Shown one piece after another: positions 3,240 to 33,011 of a stretch of DNA of 33,313 bases (position 1 is its first letter; each line of letters starts with the position of its first letter). The translations under genes and the position numbers were made by a program. Source of the DNA: Pseudomonadota bacterium (lineage in GTDB: Bacteria; Pseudomonadota; Alphaproteobacteria; Acetobacterales; Acetobacteraceae). The stretch lies in assembly GCA_021805665.1 (NCBI GenBank), contig JAJZEV010000094.1, positions 1 through 33,313 on the forward strand, given 5' to 3'. Below the pieces are notes generated by a model, which saw nothing but the letters and a program-made list of their open reading frames with translations, was not told the origin of the DNA and made no database searches.

Positions 3240-4040
3240 TCAGTTCACCGCGACTTGGGTCACTGCGCCGCCGGTCGCCGTCCGCCCGCCATCCACTACA
3301 TACTGCGCGCCGGTAATGTTGGACGCGAGGTCGGAGGACAGGAAAATCACCAGATTGGCGACTTCCTCGGCCGTGCCATAGCGCCCCAGCGGAATCGCGG
3401 ACTGATACCGGGCGCCGACAGCGCCAGGATCGTTGGGGTTCAACATCGTCTGCAAGGACTGGATCATCCGCGTATCGATCGGGCCGGGGCAGATGCAGTT
3501 GACCCGGATGCCCATGCGCGCGACCTCGCCCGAGGCCGACTTGGTCAACCCGATGACCGCGTGCTTGGACGCGACATAGGCCGGCATTCCCGGTGTGCCG
3601 ACCAGCCCCGCAATCGAAGCGGTGTTCACCACCGAACCGCGTCCCTGCCGGATCATGACCGGCAACACATGCCGCATGCCCAGGAACACGCCCTTCACGT
3701 TCACCGACATAACCCGGTCGAACATATCCTCATCGTATTCGTGCGTCGGCGCGACGCTGCCTTCGATACCGGCGTTGTTATGGAAGCAGTCGATGGCGCC
3801 ATACTTGTCCAGCGCGACCTTCACATAATTCTGCACATCGGCGGTTTGGGTCACATCGGCGGCAACGAAATGCGCTTCGCCGCCCTGCTGGCGCAATATG
3901 CCGGCGGTTGCTTCGCCCGCCGCCTGGTCGCGATCCACAATGACGACCTTGGCGCCCCGGCTGGAGAATCCCAGCGCCACCGCCCGGCCAATGCCGTTGC
4001 CCGCGCCCGTGATCAGGGCGACTTTTCCATGGAAGTCCAT
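3240..4040 (-). CDS. SDR family oxidoreductase
   Basis: MDFHGKVALITGAGNGIGRAVALGF...NNAGIEG...YVASKHAV...VDGGRTATGG. Confidence 0.92.
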   Translation of the reverse strand: MDFHGKVALITGAGNGIGRAVALGFSSRGAKVVIVDRDQAAGEATAGILRQQGGEAHFVAADVTQTADVQNYVKVALDKYGAIDCFHNNAGIEGSVAPTHEYDEDMFDRVMSVNVKGVFLGMRHVLPVMIRQGRGSVVNTASIAGLVGTPGMPAYVASKHAVIGLTKSASGEVARMGIRVNCICPGPIDTRMIQSLQTMLNPNDPGAVGARYQSAIPLGRYGTAEEVANLVIFLSSDLASNITGAQYVVDGGRTATGGAVTQVAVN

Positions 4041-4143
4041 CGTTTCCTCGCATCCTTGTTGGTATTGCGAGGCAGACTAGACCATCCATGCGCCGACGGG
4101 AATTGTGTTCAAAACAGCCAGCACCACTGCCCGCCGCGACCGC

Positions 4144-4338
4144 TCATGCTCGGCGGAGCTGCGCCTCATCGACCACGCGTTCGTGGTTGTCCAGCGCGCA
4201 CTTGGCGCGATACTGGCAGCCCTGGCTGGACACCGGCATCCTGCGAACGATGGTGTAGATACCGGGGCGAACATTGACGTTGGAACTGTTCGTCATCAGC
4301 GCGACTTTGTCGCCTGTCGTGAACTTGTAGTCGGTCAA
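4144..4338 (-). CDS. small conserved hypothetical protein, 64 aa, TTG start
   Basis: (M)TDYKFTTGDKVALMTNSSNVNVRPGIYTIVRRMPVSSQGCQYRAKCALDNHERVVDEAQLRRA; TTG start preceded on the minus strand by GGGAGGTGGC (Shine-Dalgarno). Confidence 0.65.
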   Translation of the reverse strand: MTDYKFTTGDKVALMTNSSNVNVRPGIYTIVRRMPVSSQGCQYRAKCALDNHERVVDEAQLRRA

Positions 4339-4357
4339 TCGCCACCTCCCGGTTGAA

Positions 4358-4386
4358 ACAAAAAAGGCGGCGCATGATGCGCCGCC
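4358..4386 (-). terminator. Rho-independent terminator downstream of the cold-shock gene
   Basis: Plus strand ...AAAAAAGGCGGCGCATGATGCGCCGCC: perfect GGCGGCGCAT/ATGCGCCGCC stem followed by a T run on the minus strand. Confidence 0.85.
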
Positions 4387-4393
4387 CCAGATG

Positions 4394-4600
4394 TCAGCCC
4401 GCCTGAAGGTTGACGGCCGAGGTTTTACCCTGCTGCCCACGCTCCAATTCGAAGCTGATCGTCTGACCCTCATTCAGGGTCTTCATCCCGGCGCGCTCAA
4501 CGGCCGAAATGTGGACGAACACGTCCTTGGAGCCGTCTGCCGGCTGAATGAAACCAAAACCCTTCTGGGGGTTGAACCACTTAACTGTACCTGAAGCCAC
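4394..4600 (-). CDS. cold-shock protein (CspA family)
   Basis: GTG start; [71 protein letters not shown]1 KGFGFI and RNP2 VFVHIS. Confidence 0.96.
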
Positions 4601-4686
4601 GTGAAGTCTCCGCAACTGGCCAAATCCCGCGCACATGCGGGATATCTTACTTTTCAATTGGGGAGAGAACGGCGCGTCGCGGTGCG

Positions 4687-4692
4687 ATTATA
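4687..4692 (-). promoter_or_regulatory. candidate -10 element for the cold-shock gene
   Basis: Exact TATAAT on the minus strand about 87 nt upstream of the GTG; no good -35 found. Confidence 0.35.
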
Positions 4693-4822
4693 CATCACAG
4701 GGCGGAGCGAAATAGGGATCTTGCCCCGGCTGAAAAGTTCAGCCGTCCAGCGTTCATACAGGACCTGCCCCCAATAAGACAGCACTTTGTTGGCCGAATT
4801 GTAACGCGATACGCCGAGCCCC

Positions 4823-4847
4823 AAAAAAACACCGTCACGTATCGGTG
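4823..4847 (-). terminator. Putative Rho-independent terminator at the end of the sox operon
   Basis: Minus strand CACCGATACGTGACGGTGTTTTTTT: 5-bp stem plus T7, overlapping the stop codon. Confidence 0.6.
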
Positions 4848-7800
4848 ACCACCGGATCCGCGAGCTCCAACCGAGCCTGTTCCAGACAGTCCCAGACGTA
4901 AGAAACATACGACCGTGCCACATCGAGGTGGAACAGATCACCCGCGACCCGCCAAAGCACCACCGGAACCTTGCCCAAAAGCGTCCGCGTACACATGCCA
5001 ACCGGAAACGCCGCCAGATCCAGGTCCAGCGCACAAAATGCGTTCAAACACCATGCGGCGGCCGATCCCGCCAGTTCGATCGTGCGCGTGGCATGCGACA
5101 CATCGACCACACTGACCGGATGCCCCGCCGCCGCCTTCAGCGCCTCGGCCCGCAGATCTCCGGCATCGTCCGGTGCCACGATCAACCATTCATCCGGTCC
5201 CAACCACAACGCCGCCCGGTCGCGGGCGATCACAGACCGATTCGGTACCGTCGGCAGCAACACCCCGCTAGCCAAGCCAATGCCCGTCGCCGCCGGCCCG
5301 CCAGCCCGGATCGCCAGCCGGGTCGTCGGGGCTAGAACCGTCAGCCGAACAGAAGCGGCTGGCCGGCAGGTTGGCGCCCGCCAGGGCCGCGGCGGCAATA
5401 AAGGCTCCGCCGCCACCGGCTGAACCGGCCGCGCTTTCAGCCGCTGACCCGGCTTATCGATAAACACCGGATCGACAACGGTTACCGCGATATCGCCCCG
5501 CGGCATCCGCACGGACAGCGTTGCACCGATCCGCGCCCGGCCGCCGGCAATCGACGCCAACGCGAAACCCCGCCCCAGAGCGGGACTGAAATAAGAGGAG
5601 GTCACATGGCCCAGACTCGCCACCGCCCCGTCGCCTGCCACCTGCGCGCCCTCCTCCAGCACCACGGCCGGATCGCTCGGCAGCAACCCGACCAACTGCT
5701 TGCGGTTCGGCCGCTTCATGTCAGGCAGCGACAAAGACCGCCGGCCGACGAAATCCCCGGCCGCGATCGTCCATGCCAACCCCGCGTCGTCCGGCGTGAC
5801 GGTTCCGTCGGTGTCCTGCCCGACGACGATGTAGCCTTTCTCCGCGCGCAGCACATGCATCGCGTCGGTGCCATACGGGGTCACGCCGCGCTGGAGGAAG
5901 GTATCCCACACGCGCTGCGCCTGATCCGGCGGCACGTTCAGTTCGAACCCCGCCTCCCCGGTGAAGCTCACCCGGAACAGGCGCAGCGGAATGTCGCGGA
6001 TATGGCCATCCCGCACGCTCATATGCGGCATCGGCCCAAGGTCGATATCCGGGATGAACGGCGCCAGCACCTCCGCCGACCGCGGCCCCTGCACCGCGAT
6101 CACCGCCCATTGTTCGGTGATCGAGGTCAGCCAGACCCGTAAGCCGGGGAATTCGGTTTGCAGGTAATCTTCCATGTGGTGCAACACGAAGGCCGCATCG
6201 GCGGTCGTGGTTGTCACATGAAACCGATCGGCGGTCAGCCGGGCGACGATGCCGTCGTCGCGGATGAAACCATCCTCCCCGGTCAGCACCGCATAGCGGC
6301 AGCGCCCGGGCACCAGGCCGGTGAAATCGCCAGTGTAGATCAGACTCAGGAACGCCGCCGCATCGGGTCCGGCAACCTCGATCTTGCCCAGCGTGCTGGC
6401 ATCCAGCATGCCGGCTTCGTTGCGGACAGCCAGACATTCCCGCACCGTGGCCGCTTCGGCGGTTTCGTTGCCCACCGGATAGCAGCGCGCGCGTTTCCAG
6501 GTGCCGGCATCCTCCAGAACCACACCCGCCGCCGCGATGGGCGGCAGCCTGACGGGCGCGAACAACGCCCCCCTGGCAACACCGGCAAAGGCGCCGAACG
6601 TGACCGGTGTGTACGGCGGGCGGAACGTGGTCAGACCGACCGCCTGCATGTCCTGCCCGGTCAGGGCCGCCATGGTGGCCAGGGCGTTCAGGTTGGAGGT
6701 CTTGCCCTGGTCGGTGGCCATCCCCGCCGTGGTGTAGCGCTTCGTATGCTCGATCGAAACGAAACCCTCGGCGGCGGCGATGGCCAGGTCCTTGGTCGTG
6801 ACATCGTTCTGGAAATCCACGAACGCCGACCGGTGCGGCTTGGCCGCGGCCGGTGGCCGTCCATGCGCCAGCGCCGGCATCCCGGCCACGGCGAAACGCC
6901 GCGGCTCGCTGCCCCCGGCCTCGGTCCCGTCGCGCAGGCAGGCAGCCAGGTCGAACACCCCGGCACAGGCCCCGACCGCACCTTCCGACGGCAGACAGGT
7001 GCCGGAGCCGGCATCGAACACAAGCTGCCCGCGCGACTGGCTGAACAGATGCACCGACGGAGTCCACCCGCCCGACATCAGGATCGTATCGCAAGGAATG
7101 ACGCCTGTGCCGTCGGACAGCTTGGCGGAATGGACGCGCGACCGGCCCTCGGTCCCGGCGATCGTCTGGCCGGCGCGGATCGCGATCCCCAGCGCGCGCG
7201 CCGCCTGAACCGCCTCGCCATCCACCCGGGTCCGGCTATCGACGATACCGGCGATTTCGGTTCCCGCCGCGTGCAGATCGATCGCGGCGCGGTAGGCGCT
7301 GTCATTGTCGGTGGCGATCACGATCCGCCCGCCCACCTTTACGCCATAACGGTGCAGATACGTTCGCGCCGCCCCGGCCAGCATGATGCCGGGACGGTCG
7401 TTGCCGGGAAACACCAGCGGCCGTTCGATCGCACCGGTTGCCAGCACCACTCGTTCGGCCCGCACCTGCCACAACCGCTCCCGCGGCAAGGTCCCGTCCA
7501 GCTGCGCCAGATGATCGGTGACGCGTTCCAGCAGCCCGATCGTGTTGCCGGGATACCACCCGAACGCGGTCGTGCGGGGCAGCAGAGTGACCGACCCGCC
7601 CAGCGTGGCGATCGCCTCGCGCACCCAGTCCGGCGCGGGCCAGCCGTCGATCGTGACGCCGGGTTCGTCCAGCAGCGAACCGCCCGGTTCGGCCTGCTCA
7701 TCGCACAGGATCACCCGGGCACCGGTCGCCGAGGCCCCCAATGCGGCCGCCAGACCAGCCGGTCCGCCGCCGACGATCAGCACGTCGCAATGGCCGTACC

Positions 7801-12782: not shown

Positions 12783-13556
12783 ATGGCCATCGCAATCGCC
12801 GCCGTCATCCTCATCGTCCTGGCGATCGTCGCCCGTTCGGTTCGCATCGCATCGGAATGGCAGCGCGCCGTCATCCTGCGGCTGGGGCGGTTCAGCCACG
12901 TCGCCGGCCCCGGCATCTATCTGGTGTTCCCGGTCATCGACGCGGTCGCCCAGGTCGTCGATCTGCGTATCCAAACCACCACGATCACCGCCGAACAGGC
13001 ATTGACCCGCGATACGGTCGCGGTCGGCGTCGATGCCATCGTGTTCTGGAAGGTCGAAAATGCCGAAACCGCCGCCATCAGGATCGCCAATTACCGCGAA
13101 GCGATCGAACGCGTCGCCCAGACCAGCCTGCGCGAGATGATCGGCGCCACCGACCTGTCGAAACTGCTGTCCGACCGCAAAACCGCCGACGAGCAGCTTC
13201 GTCTGACCATCAGCTCCAAAACCAGTTCCTGGGGCGTGACCGCCAGCAGCGTGGAGATCAAGGACGTGTCCATCCCGCGGGAGTTGCAGGACGCCATGAG
13301 CCGTCAGGCCCAGGCGGAGCGGGAGAAGGACGCCCGGGTCACGCTGGCCTCGGCGGAAAAGGCCATCGCCGAACAAATCCTGGAAGCGGCGAAACTGTAT
13401 GGCAGCGACCCGAATGCGCTGAAGCTGCGGCAGATGAACCTGCTGTACGAGATGAACAAGGAACGCGGGACGACTGTGCTGATTCCGACCGATATGGCCA
13501 ATAGCTTGGGTACGGTGGTTGCCCTAGCGAGGGCAACCGCTAACGATGCAGGCTAG
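12783..13556 (+). CDS. slipin / SPFH (stomatin-like) protein
   Basis: MAIAIAAVILIVLAIVARSVRIASEWQRAVILRLGRFSHVAGPGIYLVFPVIDAVAQVVDLRIQTTTITAEQALTRDTVAVGVDAIVFWKVENAE...; N-terminal TM then SPFH domain; SD AGGAGA upstream. Confidence 0.93.
   Translation: MAIAIAAVILIVLAIVARSVRIASEWQRAVILRLGRFSHVAGPGIYLVFPVIDAVAQVVDLRIQTTTITAEQALTRDTVAVGVDAIVFWKVENAETAAIRIANYREAIERVAQTSLREMIGATDLSKLLSDRKTADEQLRLTISSKTSSWGVTASSVEIKDVSIPRELQDAMSRQAQAEREKDARVTLASAEKAIAEQILEAAKLYGSDPNALKLRQMNLLYEMNKERGTTVLIPTDMANSLGTVVALARATANDAG
13517..13538. repeat. Inverted repeat at the 3' end of the slipin CDS
   Basis: GGTTGCCCT-AGCG-AGGGCAACC, perfect 9-bp arms. Confidence 0.7.
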
Positions 13557-13698
13557 TTTTGAGCATAATTTCAGCAACACAAACGATGCAGCTTATTTAT
13601 GTATCAATTTTGCCACAGATTATAGGACAGTGAAAAAAATGCTGCGATGCAGCACGAAAACGCTTGCATGCTGCAGCCGCGAAGTGCAATGTCGTTCT

Positions 13699-13781
13699 TG
13701 CAGACGCGCTTAGGCGCACTGCTTTCTTGGACGTTTCCTCCCTAAACTTCGGCGGTGCCAAAAGCACCGCCGTTTTTTTTT
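13699..13781 (+). ncRNA. Candidate trans-acting small RNA with UUUCCUCCC motif and terminal hairpin
   Basis: Promoter-like TTGCAT (13664) -17 nt- CAATGT (13687); short GCGC-TTAG-GCGC hairpin; single-stranded CTTTCTTGGACGTTTCCTCCCTAAACTT; then GGCGGTGC-CAAAA-GCACCGCC + T9. TSS estimated, not measured. Confidence 0.5.
13751..13781 (+). terminator. Rho-independent terminator
   Basis: GGCGGTGCCAAAAGCACCGCCGTTTTTTTTT. Confidence 0.9.
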
Positions 13782-13943
13782 GCCCATACCCGTAACCGCC
13801 TGTGGCCGGGCCCCGACCAGGCGTTTGTCGAACCAACAAAGCGAAGTAGCCAAGCGAACCGCAGCAACGCCTGAGGCAAACCGCCGAACGCCAGCCCCCC
13901 AGCGAGTCCGGCCGCTCTGTCTTCCTTTCATTTGAAAGAGCAC

Positions 13944-14007
13944 GGAGGGCGGGAAGCGCCGCGAAGATGTCCGGGACGCTCTCCCTCAGCGGCCCTTCCC
14001 GCCCTTC
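13944..14007. repeat. Long imperfect intergenic stem-loop
   Basis: GGAGGGCGGGAAG-c-GCCGC ... GCGGC-c-CTTCCCGCCCTTCC; about 18 paired bases, 26-nt loop, one symmetric C/C mismatch, one G-U pair. Confidence 0.6.
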
Positions 14008-14204
14008 CAGGCAAACCACCCAAGCCAAACACCGGCTTCGGCGTCTAACGAGGCGCACTGAACGCGAGGACCACACGGAAAAACCATCCGCGTGCCCGAA
14101 ACAGCCGCCGCCCGGACCCGGCCAAACTCAAAAAGCGGTTCGTCACAATGAACGGATTGGGAAGGAATCCGCCATGTTTCATCACCGGGAATGAACGACA
14201 GCCC

Positions 14205-15077
14205 CTAAAAGGTGTCGTCCGTCCCTCCACCGCTGTTGTCGGTCCACGACGAGTCATCGCTGCCGCCGCTGTTATCGGTCCAGGACGAATCCGTCCCCGA
14301 ACCCGACTGGTCCCAGCCCCCGTTATCGACGTAATCCTGATTGCCGGCCGGTGCTCCACCCTGCCCCCAGGCGCCGGTATCGACGTAGTTCTGATCGGGC
14401 GCGGCCGGAGTCGCCCAAGGGCTTGCCGCCGGCGCTCCACCGAAGCCGCCCCCGCCAAATCCGCCGCCGTAACCCTGATGCGGGGAGAACAGCCCCATCA
14501 ACGCATTGCCCGCCACCATGCCGCCAGCCACGCCCGCGGCCGTCGTCAGCGCCGAACCCAGAAAACCGGACCCGCCGCGCTGCTGAAACATGCCCTGCTG
14601 ATAATTCGGCGGATATTGCGGCGGCGGCGGCGCCTGCTGGTATGGCGGCTGCTGCGGATAGCCGGGCTGCCCGCCGCCCCAGCGCGGGTCGCCTTGCGGC
14701 GGGGCCTGCTGCGGCCGGGCACCGCCGCCGCCGAACAAGCCGCTGAAGAAGCCGCCGCCCGGCCGGGAATCCTGCGGTTGCCCCGGAGGCTGTTGGGCCG
14801 CCTGCCGTGCCTGCTGGAGTTCCCATTCCAGGCGTTGGATACGGTTCTGCGCCTCGGCCAGCGCGTGTTCCTGCACGAACGCCAGTTGGGTGATACGGTA
14901 CCGCGCCTCGGGATATTGCGCGAAACCTTGCGCGATAAACGCATCGGCCTCCCCGTCGATCGGCGGCAGCGCCGGCTGGGTCGCCGGCACCGACCCCGCC
15001 GCGAAGCCCGACGGCTGGCCGGCACCGCCAACGCGGGCGATGAATTTCGTGATGATGTCGCGTTCTTCGTTCGTCAT
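14205..15077 (-). CDS. DUF2076 domain-containing protein
   Basis: MTNEERDIITKFIARVGGAG...PPIDGEADAFIAQGFAQYPEARYRITQLAFVQEHALAEAQNRIQRLEWELQQAR...; Gly/Gln/Pro-rich centre and acidic C-terminal repeats. Confidence 0.88.
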   Translation of the reverse strand: MTNEERDIITKFIARVGGAGQPSGFAAGSVPATQPALPPIDGEADAFIAQGFAQYPEARYRITQLAFVQEHALAEAQNRIQRLEWELQQARQAAQQPPGQPQDSRPGGGFFSGLFGGGGARPQQAPPQGDPRWGGGQPGYPQQPPYQQAPPPPQYPPNYQQGMFQQRGGSGFLGSALTTAAGVAGGMVAGNALMGLFSPHQGYGGGFGGGGFGGAPAASPWATPAAPDQNYVDTGAWGQGGAPAGNQDYVDNGGWDQSGSGTDSSWTDNSGGSDDSSWTDNSGGGTDDTF

Positions 15078-27492: not shown

Positions 27493-27906
27493 ATGAACGA
27501 AATTACCACTTCCGCCGATGCGGTTTTGTCCGCCATCGGCTTCGACGCCAACGGCCTTGTCCCGGCCATCGCCCAGCAGCACGACACCGGGGAGGTGCTG
27601 ATGATGGCCTGGATGAACGCCGAATCCGTCCGCGAGACCCTGGCGACCGGCCGCGTCTGCTACTACAGCCGCAGCCGCGGCAAGCTGTGGCGCAAGGGCG
27701 AAAGCTCCGGCCAGACCCAACACCTGCATGAACTGCGGGTCGATTGCGACGGCGATACGCTGCTGCTGCTGGTGCATCAGGACGGCGTCGCCTGCCACAC
27801 CGGCCGCCGCAACTGCTTCTTCAGGGCCGTGCGCGACGGCGAACTGGTGGAAATCGCCGCGCCCGAGGTCTCCCCCGACGCGCTGTACGGACACGCCCAT
27901 GGCTGA
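27493..27906 (+). CDS. hisI: phosphoribosyl-AMP cyclohydrolase
   Basis: ...[90 protein letters not shown]. Confidence 0.97.
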
Positions 27907-28900
27907 GACAACGCCGGTCACCGTGCTGACCGGCTTCCTGGGCGCCGGCAAGACCACGCTGCTGAACCACCTGCTGCGGCAACCCGCCCTGGTCCGCACC
28001 GCCGTGCTGGTGAATGAGTTCGGGGAGATCGGGCTGGATCACCTTCTGGTGGAGAAGCTGGACGACTCCACCGTGCTGCTGAACGCCGGCTGCCTGTGCT
28101 GCACCGTGCGCGGCGACCTTGCCCGCGCCCTCCGCGAAATGCTCCCCCGCGCTCGGCGGGATGAGATATCCCGCATCGTGATCGAAACGACCGGGCTGGC
28201 CGACCCGGTGCCGATCCTGGCCACGCTGATGAGCGATCCGGTCGCCGCGTCGGCCTATCGGCTGGATGGGATTGTGACGGTGGTGGATGCGGTGAACGGC
28301 GCGGCGCATCTGGACACGCAGGAAGAAGCCGTGCGGCAGGTGGCCGTGGCCGACCGGCTGATCATCAGCAAAGCCGATTTGGCGGACACGGCCGCCCTGC
28401 GGGTTAGGCTGGCGGCACTGAATCCCGGCGCGCCGGTGGCCGAGGCGATCGGCGGCGTGGTCGATCCGGGGTTCGTGCTGGGCGCGGGGCTGTTCGATCC
28501 ACGAAGCAAAATCCCCGATGTCGCGGGATGGCTGAACGCGGCGGCGTTCGAGGCGCACGAGCACCACCATCACGACCCGAACCGCCACGATGCCGCGATC
28601 CGCGCCTTCTGCGTGACGCTGGACCAACCGCTGGACTGGCCGGCGATGGCGATGTGGCTGGAGATGCTGGTTGCCTCCCGCGGGGAAAACCTGTTGCGGG
28701 TGAAGGGAATTCTGAACCTGAAAGGCCACGACCGCCCGGTGGCGATCCACGCGGTGCGGCACCTGATGCATCCCCCCGCCAAGCTGGCGGCCTGGCCGGA
28801 GGGCGACCCCAGGACCAGCCGGCTGGTGTTCATCACCCGCGACCTGCCGCGTTCGGTGATCGAGGAGGGGCTGCGGGCGTTTCAGGCGGCGGGGGGATAG
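27899..28900 (+). CDS. CobW/COG0523 G3E-family GTPase (putative metallochaperone)
   Basis: [28 protein letters not shown]...[16 protein letters not shown]...[11 protein letters not shown] (CxCC)...SKADLAD...[12 protein letters not shown] His-rich linker; start overlaps hisI by 8 nt. Confidence 0.95.
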
Positions 28901-29056
28901 GCGGTTGGCGGGGAGGTTTTGGCAGGTCGCGAGGCGACTTGCTGGTAACCGATGGTCTATCGACACGTGTAGGGCTGGCGCGGGCAACTGCTCTTGACCC
29001 TACGCGGTCCTTCACAGCGACTGCCGGATCGGCTGAGATTGGCCGGAAGCTGAATG

Positions 29057-29079
29057 GCCGCTTTGGAGCGAGCAGCGGC
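29057..29079. repeat. Intergenic inverted repeat in a non-coding-looking stretch
   Basis: GCCGCT-TTGGAGCGAGC-AGCGGC within TGAATGGCCGCTTTGGAGCGAGCAGCGGCGAAATGCAG. Confidence 0.45.
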
Positions 29080-29320
29080 GAAATGCAGTCTTTGTTGATT
29101 TTGGCTTGCTGCGGATTTTGGGTTCAACGCGGCGCCCTGCCGCAGATGGTGGTGCTCATTCTTGCGGATGGTTGGAGCTACCTGGAGTGTCGTCCGCATG
29201 ATGAAGGAAGTCACCGTACGTCCGAATCATGCCGGAGGTCAGTGATCGCCGCCTCCCTGGCTGTCGCGATAAAATCTGTTATCAAGAATAAAGCCAGAGC
29301 AGAAGCAGCTAGGGAAAGCC

Positions 29321-30019
29321 ATGACAGACGGCGGGGACACAGTTGCCGATGTGCGGGCATGGACGGACCGGCTGCGGTCGTGCCTGCCGCAATCCGTCGA
29401 TGTCCGGGCCTTGGGCGTCGTGTCGAAGGCTCCCTTTCAAATCCTCTGCACCCGGGAAGCCTTGATCTGGCGAACTGAGGAGCTGGCGCGAACTGCCTGT
29501 GATGCATTGGAGCGCGACGACTTCGCCGCTGCGGCGATTTTGGCACGGGCCGTTACTGAAAACGCTGCCCTGACGTGGAAGCTGATGGCCGTTCTTGATG
29601 AGCGCGCAAAATATACGCCGCAGAAAATGAACGACCTGCTTATGCGCATGCTGGCCGGGTCGGGAAAATGGCCGGAAGTTCCGAAGCCGATTCATGTGAT
29701 GGATTGCCTGAGAGAAATCGACAAAAAGGTTCCGGGCGCTATGTCAAGCTATGATGGCCTAAGCGAGATCGCGCATCCCAATTGGCTGGGTGTTTCCGGG
29801 CTGTATTCGAAAAACGACGAGCCTAACTACATCACATACTTTGGGCGCGGGCTGCGCGGGGCGGATAGCTCTCGCGGCATGATCGTCAACTCGATCCTCG
29901 GTTCGCTCGGAGCATTCGAGTATGCCTACAACCGGATATCTGAACTGATGCCCAGCTTCCTTGCGGAATTGGAAAGCATTTGGTCGAATGAAAAAGATGA
30001 TTGGCCTAGCACCCGATAA
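29321..30019 (+). CDS. orphan hypothetical protein, possibly DUF5677/HEPN-like helical
   Basis: 232-aa ORF MTDGGDTVADVRAWTDRLRSCLPQSVDVRALG...AAAILARAVTENAALTWKLMAVLDERAKY...MSSYDGLSEIAHPNWLGVSGLYSKND; AGGGA upstream of ATG; no other coherent ORF here. Confidence 0.72.
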   Translation: MTDGGDTVADVRAWTDRLRSCLPQSVDVRALGVVSKAPFQILCTREALIWRTEELARTACDALERDDFAAAAILARAVTENAALTWKLMAVLDERAKYTPQKMNDLLMRMLAGSGKWPEVPKPIHVMDCLREIDKKVPGAMSSYDGLSEIAHPNWLGVSGLYSKNDEPNYITYFGRGLRGADSSRGMIVNSILGSLGAFEYAYNRISELMPSFLAELESIWSNEKDDWPSTR

Positions 30020-30038
30020 ACCCGCTTATCACGTGCTA
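30007..30038. repeat. Two-part inverted repeat spanning the orphan-gene stop codon
   Basis: TAGCAC-CC-GATAA-ACCCGC-TTATC-AC-GTGCTA. Confidence 0.65.
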
Positions 30039-30207
30039 ATCGGTTTCTGGTCGGGCGGGGGCATTCCGCACCGAAAAGCCGTTATATTTCAATGTTCGAT
30101 TTTTGCTGCGAAATTCTTGAATTACGCAACAAAGGTCTCACAAACCTGTGTGCAGCCAACATGTGGTGGTGTATAAAGCTCACGGGCATCAACTTTTCGT
30201 AGCTATC

Positions 30208-30816
30208 ATGACAATCACAGCGGACACATGGGCGATAGTCAGTGCGACTGGCCTAGGCCCAGTTTTAGCCGTAGCCCTCACCCTTTGGCGTGAAGCGGCC
30301 AAGGCTAAAAATAGCCGCCGCCTGCATGTGTTTCGAACACTCATGGCAACACGGAGAATACATATTTCCAATGACCATGTGAGTGCTATCAATCTTGTTG
30401 AGGTCGATTTCTACAAGTGCAGGAATGTTGAAGCAGCATGGAAAGAATATAGAAACCACTTGATTGATAATGGTAAGCTGGAAGATCAATATTGGCGTGA
30501 GAAAAAAGAAAACCTACTTGCAAAATTTCTTTGCGAGATTGGCGTTGTCCTTGGTTTCAAAATCCCGGCAATCGATATTTTTAGGGGTGGCTATGCTCCC
30601 AAGGGTTGGGAGCACCGGGATAATAGAGCTACGAATGCAGTGGAATATATTTATGAATTGTCGCAGGGCAAGCGGTCAGTGCCCATGGCGGCCACAAGTT
30701 TTCCCGTCTCGCAGGATGCGGTGGACAAGCAGAACTCGGTCCAGGACGCCCTTTTTAAGACTCTCTCTGGCGAACGACCATTGAAGATTAAGTCTGAGGG
30801 TGGGGTAGATGCGTGA
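30208..30816 (+). CDS. DUF6680-like hypothetical protein with N-terminal TM helix
   Basis: MTITADTWAIVSATGLGPVLAVALTLWREAAKAKNSRRLHVFRTLMATRRIHISNDHVSAINLVEVDFYKCRNVEAAWKEYRNHL...; family name recalled, not searched. Confidence 0.75.
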   Translation: MTITADTWAIVSATGLGPVLAVALTLWREAAKAKNSRRLHVFRTLMATRRIHISNDHVSAINLVEVDFYKCRNVEAAWKEYRNHLIDNGKLEDQYWREKKENLLAKFLCEIGVVLGFKIPAIDIFRGGYAPKGWEHRDNRATNAVEYIYELSQGKRSVPMAATSFPVSQDAVDKQNSVQDALFKTLSGERPLKIKSEGGVDA

Positions 30817-31261
30817 CGATCTGATATTGCTTGTATGCCTTGGTGTAATCTACGCGGTTGTCTCAGTTAGGACGCGCGATTTCTATGTTGTAATCCGTGA
30901 GTTTCGTATCGTTACTCCCGGTGAATTCGGTAAGGGTAAGCAGATAGAAAGCGCAGACGTGCATCACTTTGATGACTATGCCGCTGCAAAGGCGTTTCGC
31001 GACCTGCACGACACTTACGCTGCATGGCCACATTATGAAAACCAGCAGAACATAAACTATCTATACGCCGTTCCTGCCCTAACAGCCAAAAGGGCGAGCG
31101 CGAAGATGACAAATCAGATTCATCATGAGGCAAAGCTGTTGATGGAGACACCCCATTCAATACTCTCGGCTCTGAAGAAACATTGGGATGAGGAGCGTAA
31201 AGCCCGCGCTGAACTGGAAGAGTTGGAATCCCAACCCACACCTCTAGGCGAAACCGAATAA
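30809..31261 (+). CDS. hypothetical membrane-anchored protein, 150 aa
   Basis: MRDDLILLVCLGVIYAVVSVRTRDFYVVIREFRIVTPGEFGKGKQIESADVHHFDDYAAAKAFRDLHDTYAAWPHYENQQ...; N-terminal TM; ATGCGTGA overlap with preceding gene. Confidence 0.65.
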   Translation: MRDDLILLVCLGVIYAVVSVRTRDFYVVIREFRIVTPGEFGKGKQIESADVHHFDDYAAAKAFRDLHDTYAAWPHYENQQNINYLYAVPALTAKRASAKMTNQIHHEAKLLMETPHSILSALKKHWDEERKARAELEELESQPTPLGETE

Positions 31262-31364
31262 GTCCGCTTCTCCTTCCTGTCATTGGCTGCGATACACTCC
31301 GGCTGCAAAGGCTTCATAACGTTCGGTTCGGTTAAGTTGGGTCATCGCGGCTAAGCGAGTGCCG

Positions 31365-31433
31365 CATAACCGCCAATTATGGCAAGTGCCCATGTTCGCC
31401 AGTTTGACCACATAACGACAAGTTATGGAAAGT
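31365..31433. repeat. Pair of similar 23-nt direct repeats, each with internal inverted CATAA/TTATG arms
   Basis: CATAACCGCCAATTATGGCAAGT (31365-31387) and CATAACGACAAGTTATGGAAAGT (31411-31433), 18/23 identical, 46-bp period. Confidence 0.55.
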
Positions 31434-31643
31434 CGGCGCGCTTGCTTGCCCGAGAAAGTCGCGCCGCCGCCGCATCACACGCCCCTATAACAATGCGGCG
31501 CTTGCGTGTCCGTGAATGTCCGGGAGGCAACCCACTGTCCGGCTTCGCGAGATGGCCCACCCCGTCCAGGACGACTTAAATGGGCGCAACCCAACCGCCC
31601 GGGCTCAAGCGCCCTATCAAGCGTGCCGCCCCAAACCGAATGC

Positions 31644-33011
31644 TCAGTGCGCGGCAAGGCTCCGCCGCAGCCGCGTGATCGCCGCAGGCAAGCCGCGCAC
31701 CCTCATCACCCGGCCCGTCTCATCGTACTCCTCCGACAGAACCCGCGCGCTTTCATACACCTCGCCGATCAGCCCTTGTTTCGCATAGGGCAAGACCAGC
31801 ACATCCTCCACCATCGCCGCCTCGAAGAACGCGATGATCGTGTCCCGCAAAGCGCTCACATCCTCAGGCTTGTGGGCAGACAGCAGGATCGCGTCTGGAT
31901 GCTTCTCCATCAGGGCCGCGCGGCCGGCGGCATCCACCCGGTCCATCTTGTTCAGCACCAGGCGGGACGGCACCGCATCCGCCCCGATCTCCCGCAGCAC
32001 GCCACGGCTGACCTCCAGTTGCGCCTCATAGGTCGGGTCCGATGCGTCCACCACGTAAAGCAGCAAGGAGGCCTCCAGCGCCTCCGCCAAAGTGGAACGG
32101 AACGATGCCACCAGATCGTGCGGCAGTTGCTTGATGAAGCCGACCGTGTCGGACACAAGCACGCGGGGCCGGGTCTCTGGCTGCAGCGCGCGCACGGTGG
32201 TGTCCAGTGTGGCGAACAGCTTGTCCTCCACCAGCACCTGGCTGCCGGTCAGCGCCCGCATCAGCGAGGATTTGCCCGCATTGGTATAGCCGACCAGCGC
32301 CACCCGCAGTTGGTCCCGGCGGGCGGAGCGGCGTTGGTCGCTGTCGCGCTGCACCGCCGCCAACTGGTCCTTCAGTTCAGAGAGACGGTCGCGGATCTTG
32401 CGGCGATCGAGGTCCAGCGTGCTTTCGCCGGCTCCGGGGCCTTGCTGCCGCCCGCCGCCAGCCGAGGACTCCCGCATCCGCGGCGCCACGTATTTCAGCC
32501 GCGCCATCTCCACCTGCAGCTTTGCCTCCCGGGTGTTGGCGTGGCGGTGGAATATTTCGACGATGACGCCGGTGCGATCCAGCACCTGCGCCCCGGTGGC
32601 GCGCTCCAGGTTGCGGATCTGGCTGGGCGAGAGTTCATGATCGACGATGACGAATTCCGGCTTGCGGCCGGGACCCGCGCCCGGTTCAGCGGCATCGGAC
32701 ATCGCGGGGCCGCTCGTCGCACCAACGCCTTCGAACCGTTGCCGCGCCTTGGACTTCGCGGTTGGCGCCATCGGGCCGACCACACCGCTGCCACCGGTCA
32801 GCGCCGCCAGTTCCGCCAGCTTGCCGCTTCCCAACAGCGACGCTGCGCCAGTTCCCTCGCGCTTTTGCGACACCGAACCGGCAAGCTCATAGCCCAGCGT
32901 CTTTACCAGCCGCCCCAGTTCCTCAAGGCTGGCTTCGTGCGCGACGTCATCGACATCGGGGGTCTGGATGCCGACGAGGACGGCAAGCGGAATGGGCGGT
33001 TTGGTTTCCAT
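31644..33011 (-). CDS. hflX: GTPase HflX
   Basis: ...EFVIVDHELSPSQIRNLERATGAQVLDRTGVIVEIFHRHANTREAKLQVEMARLKYVAPRM...GYTNAGKSSLMRALTGSQVLVEDKLFATLDTTVRALQ...VSDTVGFIKQLPHDLVASFRSTLAEALEASLLLYVVDASDP. Confidence 0.96.
   Translation of the reverse strand: METKPPIPLAVLVGIQTPDVDDVAHEASLEELGRLVKTLGYELAGSVSQKREGTGAASLLGSGKLAELAALTGGSGVVGPMAPTAKSKARQRFEGVGATSGPAMSDAAEPGAGPGRKPEFVIVDHELSPSQIRNLERATGAQVLDRTGVIVEIFHRHANTREAKLQVEMARLKYVAPRMRESSAGGGRQQGPGAGESTLDLDRRKIRDRLSELKDQLAAVQRDSDQRRSARRDQLRVALVGYTNAGKSSLMRALTGSQVLVEDKLFATLDTTVRALQPETRPRVLVSDTVGFIKQLPHDLVASFRSTLAEALEASLLLYVVDASDPTYEAQLEVSRGVLREIGADAVPSRLVLNKMDRVDAAGRAALMEKHPDAILLSAHKPEDVSALRDTIIAFFEAAMVEDVLVLPYAKQGLIGEVYESARVLSEEYDETGRVMRVRGLPAAITRLRRSLAAH

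Follow-up and report, generated by a model that had tools for sequence, protein, structure and literature searches.

A species-specific island with a DUF5677-like gene, a DUF6680 gene and an overlapping small membrane protein gene in an Acetobacteraceae genome

We analyzed a 33,313-nucleotide stretch of DNA from an Acetobacteraceae bacterium (the window), which is the whole of contig C14 (JAJZEV010000094.1) in an assembly of 347 contigs and 4.55 Mb (GCA_021805665.1). Between a cobW-like gene and hflX lies a species-specific stretch of ~2.7 kb (28922..31620, no strand assigned) that carries three small genes on one strand, called A, B and C here. Its borders were set by blastn against the hflX and cobW loci of the genus. 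Congener homology stopped at 28921 on the left, where G904 is the closest relative (cobW 91% identical to that of the window in DNA and 95% in protein), and picked up again at 31621-31660 on the right. An initial annotation of this DNA had given the island as 29321-31261. These limits are right for the ORFs, but the species-specific stretch is longer, and ~400 bp at its left end carry no gene. The three ORFs, their order and strand, and an 8-nt overlap between B and C were all confirmed where that annotation had placed them.

We observed a GC content of 0.48-0.51 in the island, compared to 0.64-0.68 around it. GC at third codon positions (GC3) was 0.66 in A, 0.49 in B and 0.50 in C, compared to 0.81-0.87 in six flanking genes (MATE, TetR, Fur, HisI, CobW and HflX). 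Rare codons accounted for 1.3% of A, 5.9% of B and 8.0% of C, compared to 0-1.8% in flanking genes. These data bear out the lower GC and deviant codon use noted before. In 500 shuffles of the B-C segment, a chance ORF of 202 aa was never reached, and one of 150 aa was reached in 0.6%. No integrase, tRNA or terminal repeats were found at the island borders, and scanning the island for Rfam families, tRNAs, repeats, promoters and terminators returned no matches.

The left flank encodes a COG0523/CobW-like GTPase (27902..28900, + strand) with matches in 25 of the 33 genus genomes, its own included (best relative, 95%). The right flank encodes the HflX GTPase (31644..33011, − strand), found in ~15 congeners at 85-93%. 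The space between the two had been proposed as an insertion hotspot, which our comparison with relatives does not support. We inspected 13 congener loci around HflX, none with a CobW match nearby, and 12 around CobW, none with an HflX match nearby; some of these loci end early at contig ends. The flanks were thus not neighbors in any congener locus examined, and the same flanks with different cargo were not found. The 3′ neighbors of cobW and of hflX also differed between genus genomes. Because the two genes lie apart in the congener loci inspected and have variable 3′ neighbors, their adjacency is peculiar to the window genome, and gene order there is generally fluid.

Gene A (29321..30019, + strand) encodes a 232-aa protein that is soluble and, in an AlphaFold model, helical, as first described. 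Searches with this single sequence recovered no relatives from 250 genomes of the order, plasmids, phages, viral contigs or genome contigs. A degenerate DNA pattern for LSExAHPNWxG, run over 84,980 species genomes, gave 31 loci, most of them encoding A relatives. Twenty relatives were aligned, with identities of 58-61% in Mesorhizobium, 47% in Bradyrhizobium and ~35-39% in Acidobacteria, and these homologues back the reality of the gene. The family motif reads R76-x3-E80 ... Y144-DGLSEIAHPNWLG. R76, E80, G113 and Y144 were invariant across the 21 rows of the alignment. The codons of R76-AVT-E80 lie at 29546..29560 (+ strand), and those of YDGLSEIAHPNWLG (residues 144-157) at 29750..29791 (+ strand). 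Since LSExAHPNWxG was the search pattern, the invariance of its columns is by selection; R76, E80 and Y144 are independent of it.

No database family reached its cut-off with A. The match to DUF5677 (PF18928; E = 0.023) scored 15.2 bits, under the cut-off of 27.1, and A has an SExAHPNWxG motif of its own. DUF5677 matched 17 of the 21 A-family members (best E = 7.8e-6), and a remote relationship between the two is supported at the family level. The AlphaFold model of A (pLDDT 88.5, pTM 0.85) is all-helical save one small hairpin. Foldseek gave no significant match for this model, and PDB profile searches with A and with B gave nothing significant. The second Foldseek name, the haem dioxygenase MarE, was rejected (E = 0.17, not significant; TM-score 0.33).

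The initial annotation had suggested that A is a HEPN/DUF5677-like effector. The DUF5677 part of this suggestion holds as a remote relation, but the HEPN part is not supported. It is possible, though doubtful, that A works as a genuine HEPN ribonuclease of the DUF5677/AbiV type, a reading that concerns A by itself and would be compatible with our preferred explanation of the island. AbiV was the first Foldseek name (E = 0.15, probability 0.77) and the sacsin HEPN domain ranked 49th (E = 1.5). Like the AbiV/HEPN superfamily, A is all-helical, with conserved polar residues (R/E) in helix 2 and a His at the end of a later helix, and the DUF5677 matches across the family point the same way. Against this, A lacks the HEPN Rx4-6H motif (residues 145-147, ahead of H152, are D, G and L), the Foldseek E-values are not significant, and TM-scores to HEPN-type targets, by target, stay below 0.5 (0.37-0.49). 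Some HEPN families, such as AbiV, also lack Rx4-6H (PMC3710099).

We then compared the neighborhoods of A relatives. The A relative of Mesorhizobium (L110, L119) overlaps or abuts a CoiA-like gene, and in L110 a HEPN/Toprim-N gene and IetS (IetAS system, E = 3e-294) lie upstream on the same strand. A GIY-YIG gene adjoins the A relative in L111 and an Mrr-like gene in L126. In L113 (1880-3767), a PRTase gene with matches to PsyrT (2e-8) and ShosT (2e-4) comes immediately before the gene of a 432-aa fusion protein, in which the A domain makes up the C-terminal half. The N-terminal part of this fusion is a separate domain of ~200 aa. It looks SLOG-like by eye (GDADGAD); no library confirmed SLOG, and a PDB search with it gave chance matches only. 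DprA-PRTase pairs are validated defense that protects from T7 and lambda, and shosTA has DprA homologues as its antitoxins (PMC9122126). L113 may represent a new architecture of a ShosTA-like pair. The window has neither a PRTase gene nor the L113 N-terminal domain. In Bradyrhizobium (L129), the A relative overlaps a DUF4238 gene, and one DUF4238 protein has been validated against T7 (PMC9122126). Over a few kb, the surrounding region (L129:3783-8000, Bradyrhizobium sp. AUGA SZCCT0283) has an ArdC-like gene (by eye), the DUF4238/A overlap and genes for a PLD-like and a DUF6680 protein, and it looks like a defense island. At least five A relatives are lone genes among housekeeping genes (L114, L116, L120, L123, L134). 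Given these lone cases, the defense-type settings of A relatives are suggestive and do not constitute an enrichment.

Gene B (30208..30816, + strand) encodes a 202-aa protein that proved to be a full member of DUF6680 (PF20385; 144.5 bits against a cut-off of 23.2, E = 3e-42), where mere likeness had been noted, and homologues back the reality of the gene. The ATG at 30208 is the more likely start than the in-frame GTG at 30148 because it fits the family alignment, in which M46, R49, N62, Y129 and P131 are invariant. B carries the TM helix of the family, its LMxTR...HVxALN core and its YxP residues. Hydropathy showed a single N-terminal hydrophobic helix (Kyte-Doolittle maximum 1.95 at residue 10). 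In the AlphaFold model (pLDDT 83, pTM 0.60), residues 5-47 form one helix of 43 residues that includes the TM segment, and there is also a helical domain, presumably cytosolic. Foldseek found nothing significant for this model.

Of 399 genomes surveyed in the phylum, 12 had a DUF6680 member, as had 8 of 289 surveyed in the class (window genome counted in both), and B also had matches on Vibrio parahaemolyticus plasmids. Most relatives are lone genes with housekeeping genes around them (for example L016, L017, L151, L152 and L153). In the Yersinia P2-like phage vB_YenM_31.17, a DUF6680 gene annotated as hypothetical lies between gpA and gpQ (L163:3905-4567). This interval is a defense hotspot of P2-like phages, where P2 itself carries old and tin (PMC9122126). 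On a Klebsiella plasmid, the DUF6680 gene adjoins a YpjF-YfjZ toxin-antitoxin pair, and in a prophage of congener G248 (L177) it lies near the portal gene. DUF3644 and PLD-like genes stand beside DUF6680 in L022, and a related PLD-like gene lies near DUF6680 in L129. A RelE/HigB-type pair (by eye) neighbors DUF6680 in L148, as does Fic in L174. In three loci, a small protein gene (~110 aa) is directly beside DUF6680 (L150:5368-6275, L018:2490-3865, L175:5160-6059), and the start-stop junctions of the two genes overlap in L018 and L150. The assignment of this small partner to GrlR is weak (E = 0.018). The GrlR-like gene and DUF6680 may form a conserved two-gene unit. In L024 and L025, DUF6680 is in broken pieces near a 772-aa glycosidase-like gene that in L015 stands next to an unbroken copy, which points to repeated decay of DUF6680 at one site in these relatives. 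PADLOC neighbor tallies were rejected as an enrichment test because the library holds generic housekeeping families that dominate them. Since these tallies are generic, and many A relatives and most B relatives are lone genes, no enrichment was demonstrated.

Gene C (30809..31261, + strand) encodes a 150-aa protein. Its ATG at 30809 precedes the TGA of B at 30814-30816, giving the 8-nt overlap ATGCGTGA. Hydropathy showed an N-terminal hydrophobic helix (Kyte-Doolittle maximum 2.56 at residue 4), so that B and C each have a single N-terminal TM helix, as first reported. Searches of the family libraries with C returned no family, and we found no C relatives in plasmids, phages or viral contigs. 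In the order (210 genomes) and the genus (33 genomes), clear relatives were limited to remnants in two congeners. The copy in G203 matches residues 48-144 (97 aa, 48% identity), is truncated and has stops upstream; it differs from C at 35, 28 and 60 sites in codon positions 1, 2 and 3. The G903 relative is a 25-residue piece at a contig end, and this piece adjoins genes for an AbrB-type antitoxin and a PemK-like toxin (by eye; region L161:8815-9694). Because a congener homologue exists and shows an excess of third-position differences, C is confirmed as a protein that this lineage makes but readily loses, with no fixed partner seen. C was beside none of the ~26 other DUF6680 genes examined, unlike in the window. 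The proposal that B and C form a membrane complex is plausible from the TM helices and the overlap, but no conserved pairing was seen among these genes.

The initial annotation had treated the three genes as one candidate system. Read as a single system, A, B and C would be one operon encoding a membrane-linked defense system, with A as a soluble effector and B and C as a membrane sensor complex. The genes share strand and order and have foreign composition throughout, B overlaps C, and there is no terminator-like site between A and B. We nevertheless consider a single system very unlikely. Among the 33 genus genomes, besides that of the window, DUF6680 occurred in three and A relatives in four, with none in common, and C occurred as remnants. 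Within the genus, the genes were thus largely seen in unrelated contexts and never together. L129 is the single neighborhood with both an A relative and a DUF6680 gene, ~2.1 kb apart. This proximity is consistent with an island rich in cargo, but it might point to a link between A and B. The two genes are convergent on opposite strands, are separated by the PLD-like gene and others, and fall into different gene groups. Because A and B relatives share no congener genome and the L129 pair is loose, we divide the island into two units, A and B-C. The independence of A is further argued by its GC3, which differs from that of B and C, by the 188-nt gap between A and B, and by C never being seen beside A relatives in the loci examined.

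Our preferred explanation, to which we give about an even chance, is that the island grew by accretion from cargo of defense or genetic-conflict type, acquired in independent events. Its accessory, defense-type character, proposed earlier, is supported by the family contexts of A and B relatives. The first unit would be A, a stand-alone soluble DUF5677-like helical protein, most likely a cytosolic sensor or effector responding to nucleic acid or nucleotide. Conserved R76, E80, Y144, S148-E149 and H152 would line a polar pocket, whose chemistry we infer from these residues. In relatives, the same module is joined to varied enzymatic partners (CoiA-like nuclease, GIY-YIG, Mrr, DUF4238 and a PRTase toxin-like gene). 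The second unit would be B-C, a pair of membrane-anchored proteins translated from a single message, with putative coupling between the two. The first helix of B would sit in the inner membrane with its helical domain in the cytosol, and C, also anchored, would be its small partner. On sensing phage, B-C may impair the membrane or block infection, acting as an exclusion or abortive unit, as the topology, the overlap and the relative in the phage hotspot suggest; the analogy here is to moron-type exclusion genes carried by P2-like phages. An anti-phage function is inferred for A and B-C. PADLOC models gave no match to A, B or C at E up to 1. To our knowledge, none of the three families includes a member whose function has been tested.

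The island could also be toxin-antitoxin or addiction cargo without an anti-phage role, with B-C as a membrane toxin and its regulator and A as an antitoxin-like module. The small overlapping genes would suit this, as would the toxin-antitoxin-type neighbors of B relatives (YpjF-YfjZ in Klebsiella, the RelE/HigB-type pair seen by eye in L148, Fic in L174) and the AbrB-PemK type pair seen by eye beside the end of a C relative in G903. We judge it unlikely: B and C show no resemblance to known families of toxins or antitoxins, and B is usually alone. It is less probable still that the genes are neutral remnants left by the decay of a mobile element and lack any function as a set. The borders without integrase, repeats or tRNA, the geneless left end, the truncated C relative in G203 and the broken DUF6680 copies in L024 and L025 would agree with decay, but the three frames are intact, A keeps its family motif and B keeps the DUF6680 invariants.

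Among the known systems closest to the island is the gpA-gpQ hotspot of P2-like phages, whose cargo includes old/tin, DUF4238 and DprA-PRTase genes (PMC9122126). A DUF6680 gene sits in this hotspot in vB_YenM_31.17, and two of its cargo families, DUF4238 and PRTase, are joined to A relatives. In contrast, the window island is chromosomal and has no adjoining phage genes. The island itself is ordinary accessory cargo. What it adds is concrete anchors for DUF6680 and for the DUF5677-like A family, two widespread families that have gone unstudied and can now be tested as defense components: a DUF6680 gene at a P2-like defense hotspot, and an A-family domain in an apparent PRTase toxin-antitoxin or defense pair. 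A broader proposal, which we hold as speculative, is that DUF6680 is an undescribed membrane-anchored phage-exclusion family with swappable small partners (C or the GrlR-like protein), and that A-family domains serve as a portable sensor of DUF5677-like type, combining with diverse effectors (nucleases or PRTases) and in one form making up the C-terminal part of a ShosA/PsyrA-like protein. Elsewhere in the window, we observed two further dips in GC content (0.58-0.60), at 4001-5000 and 13001-14500, with no convincing accessory gene in either.
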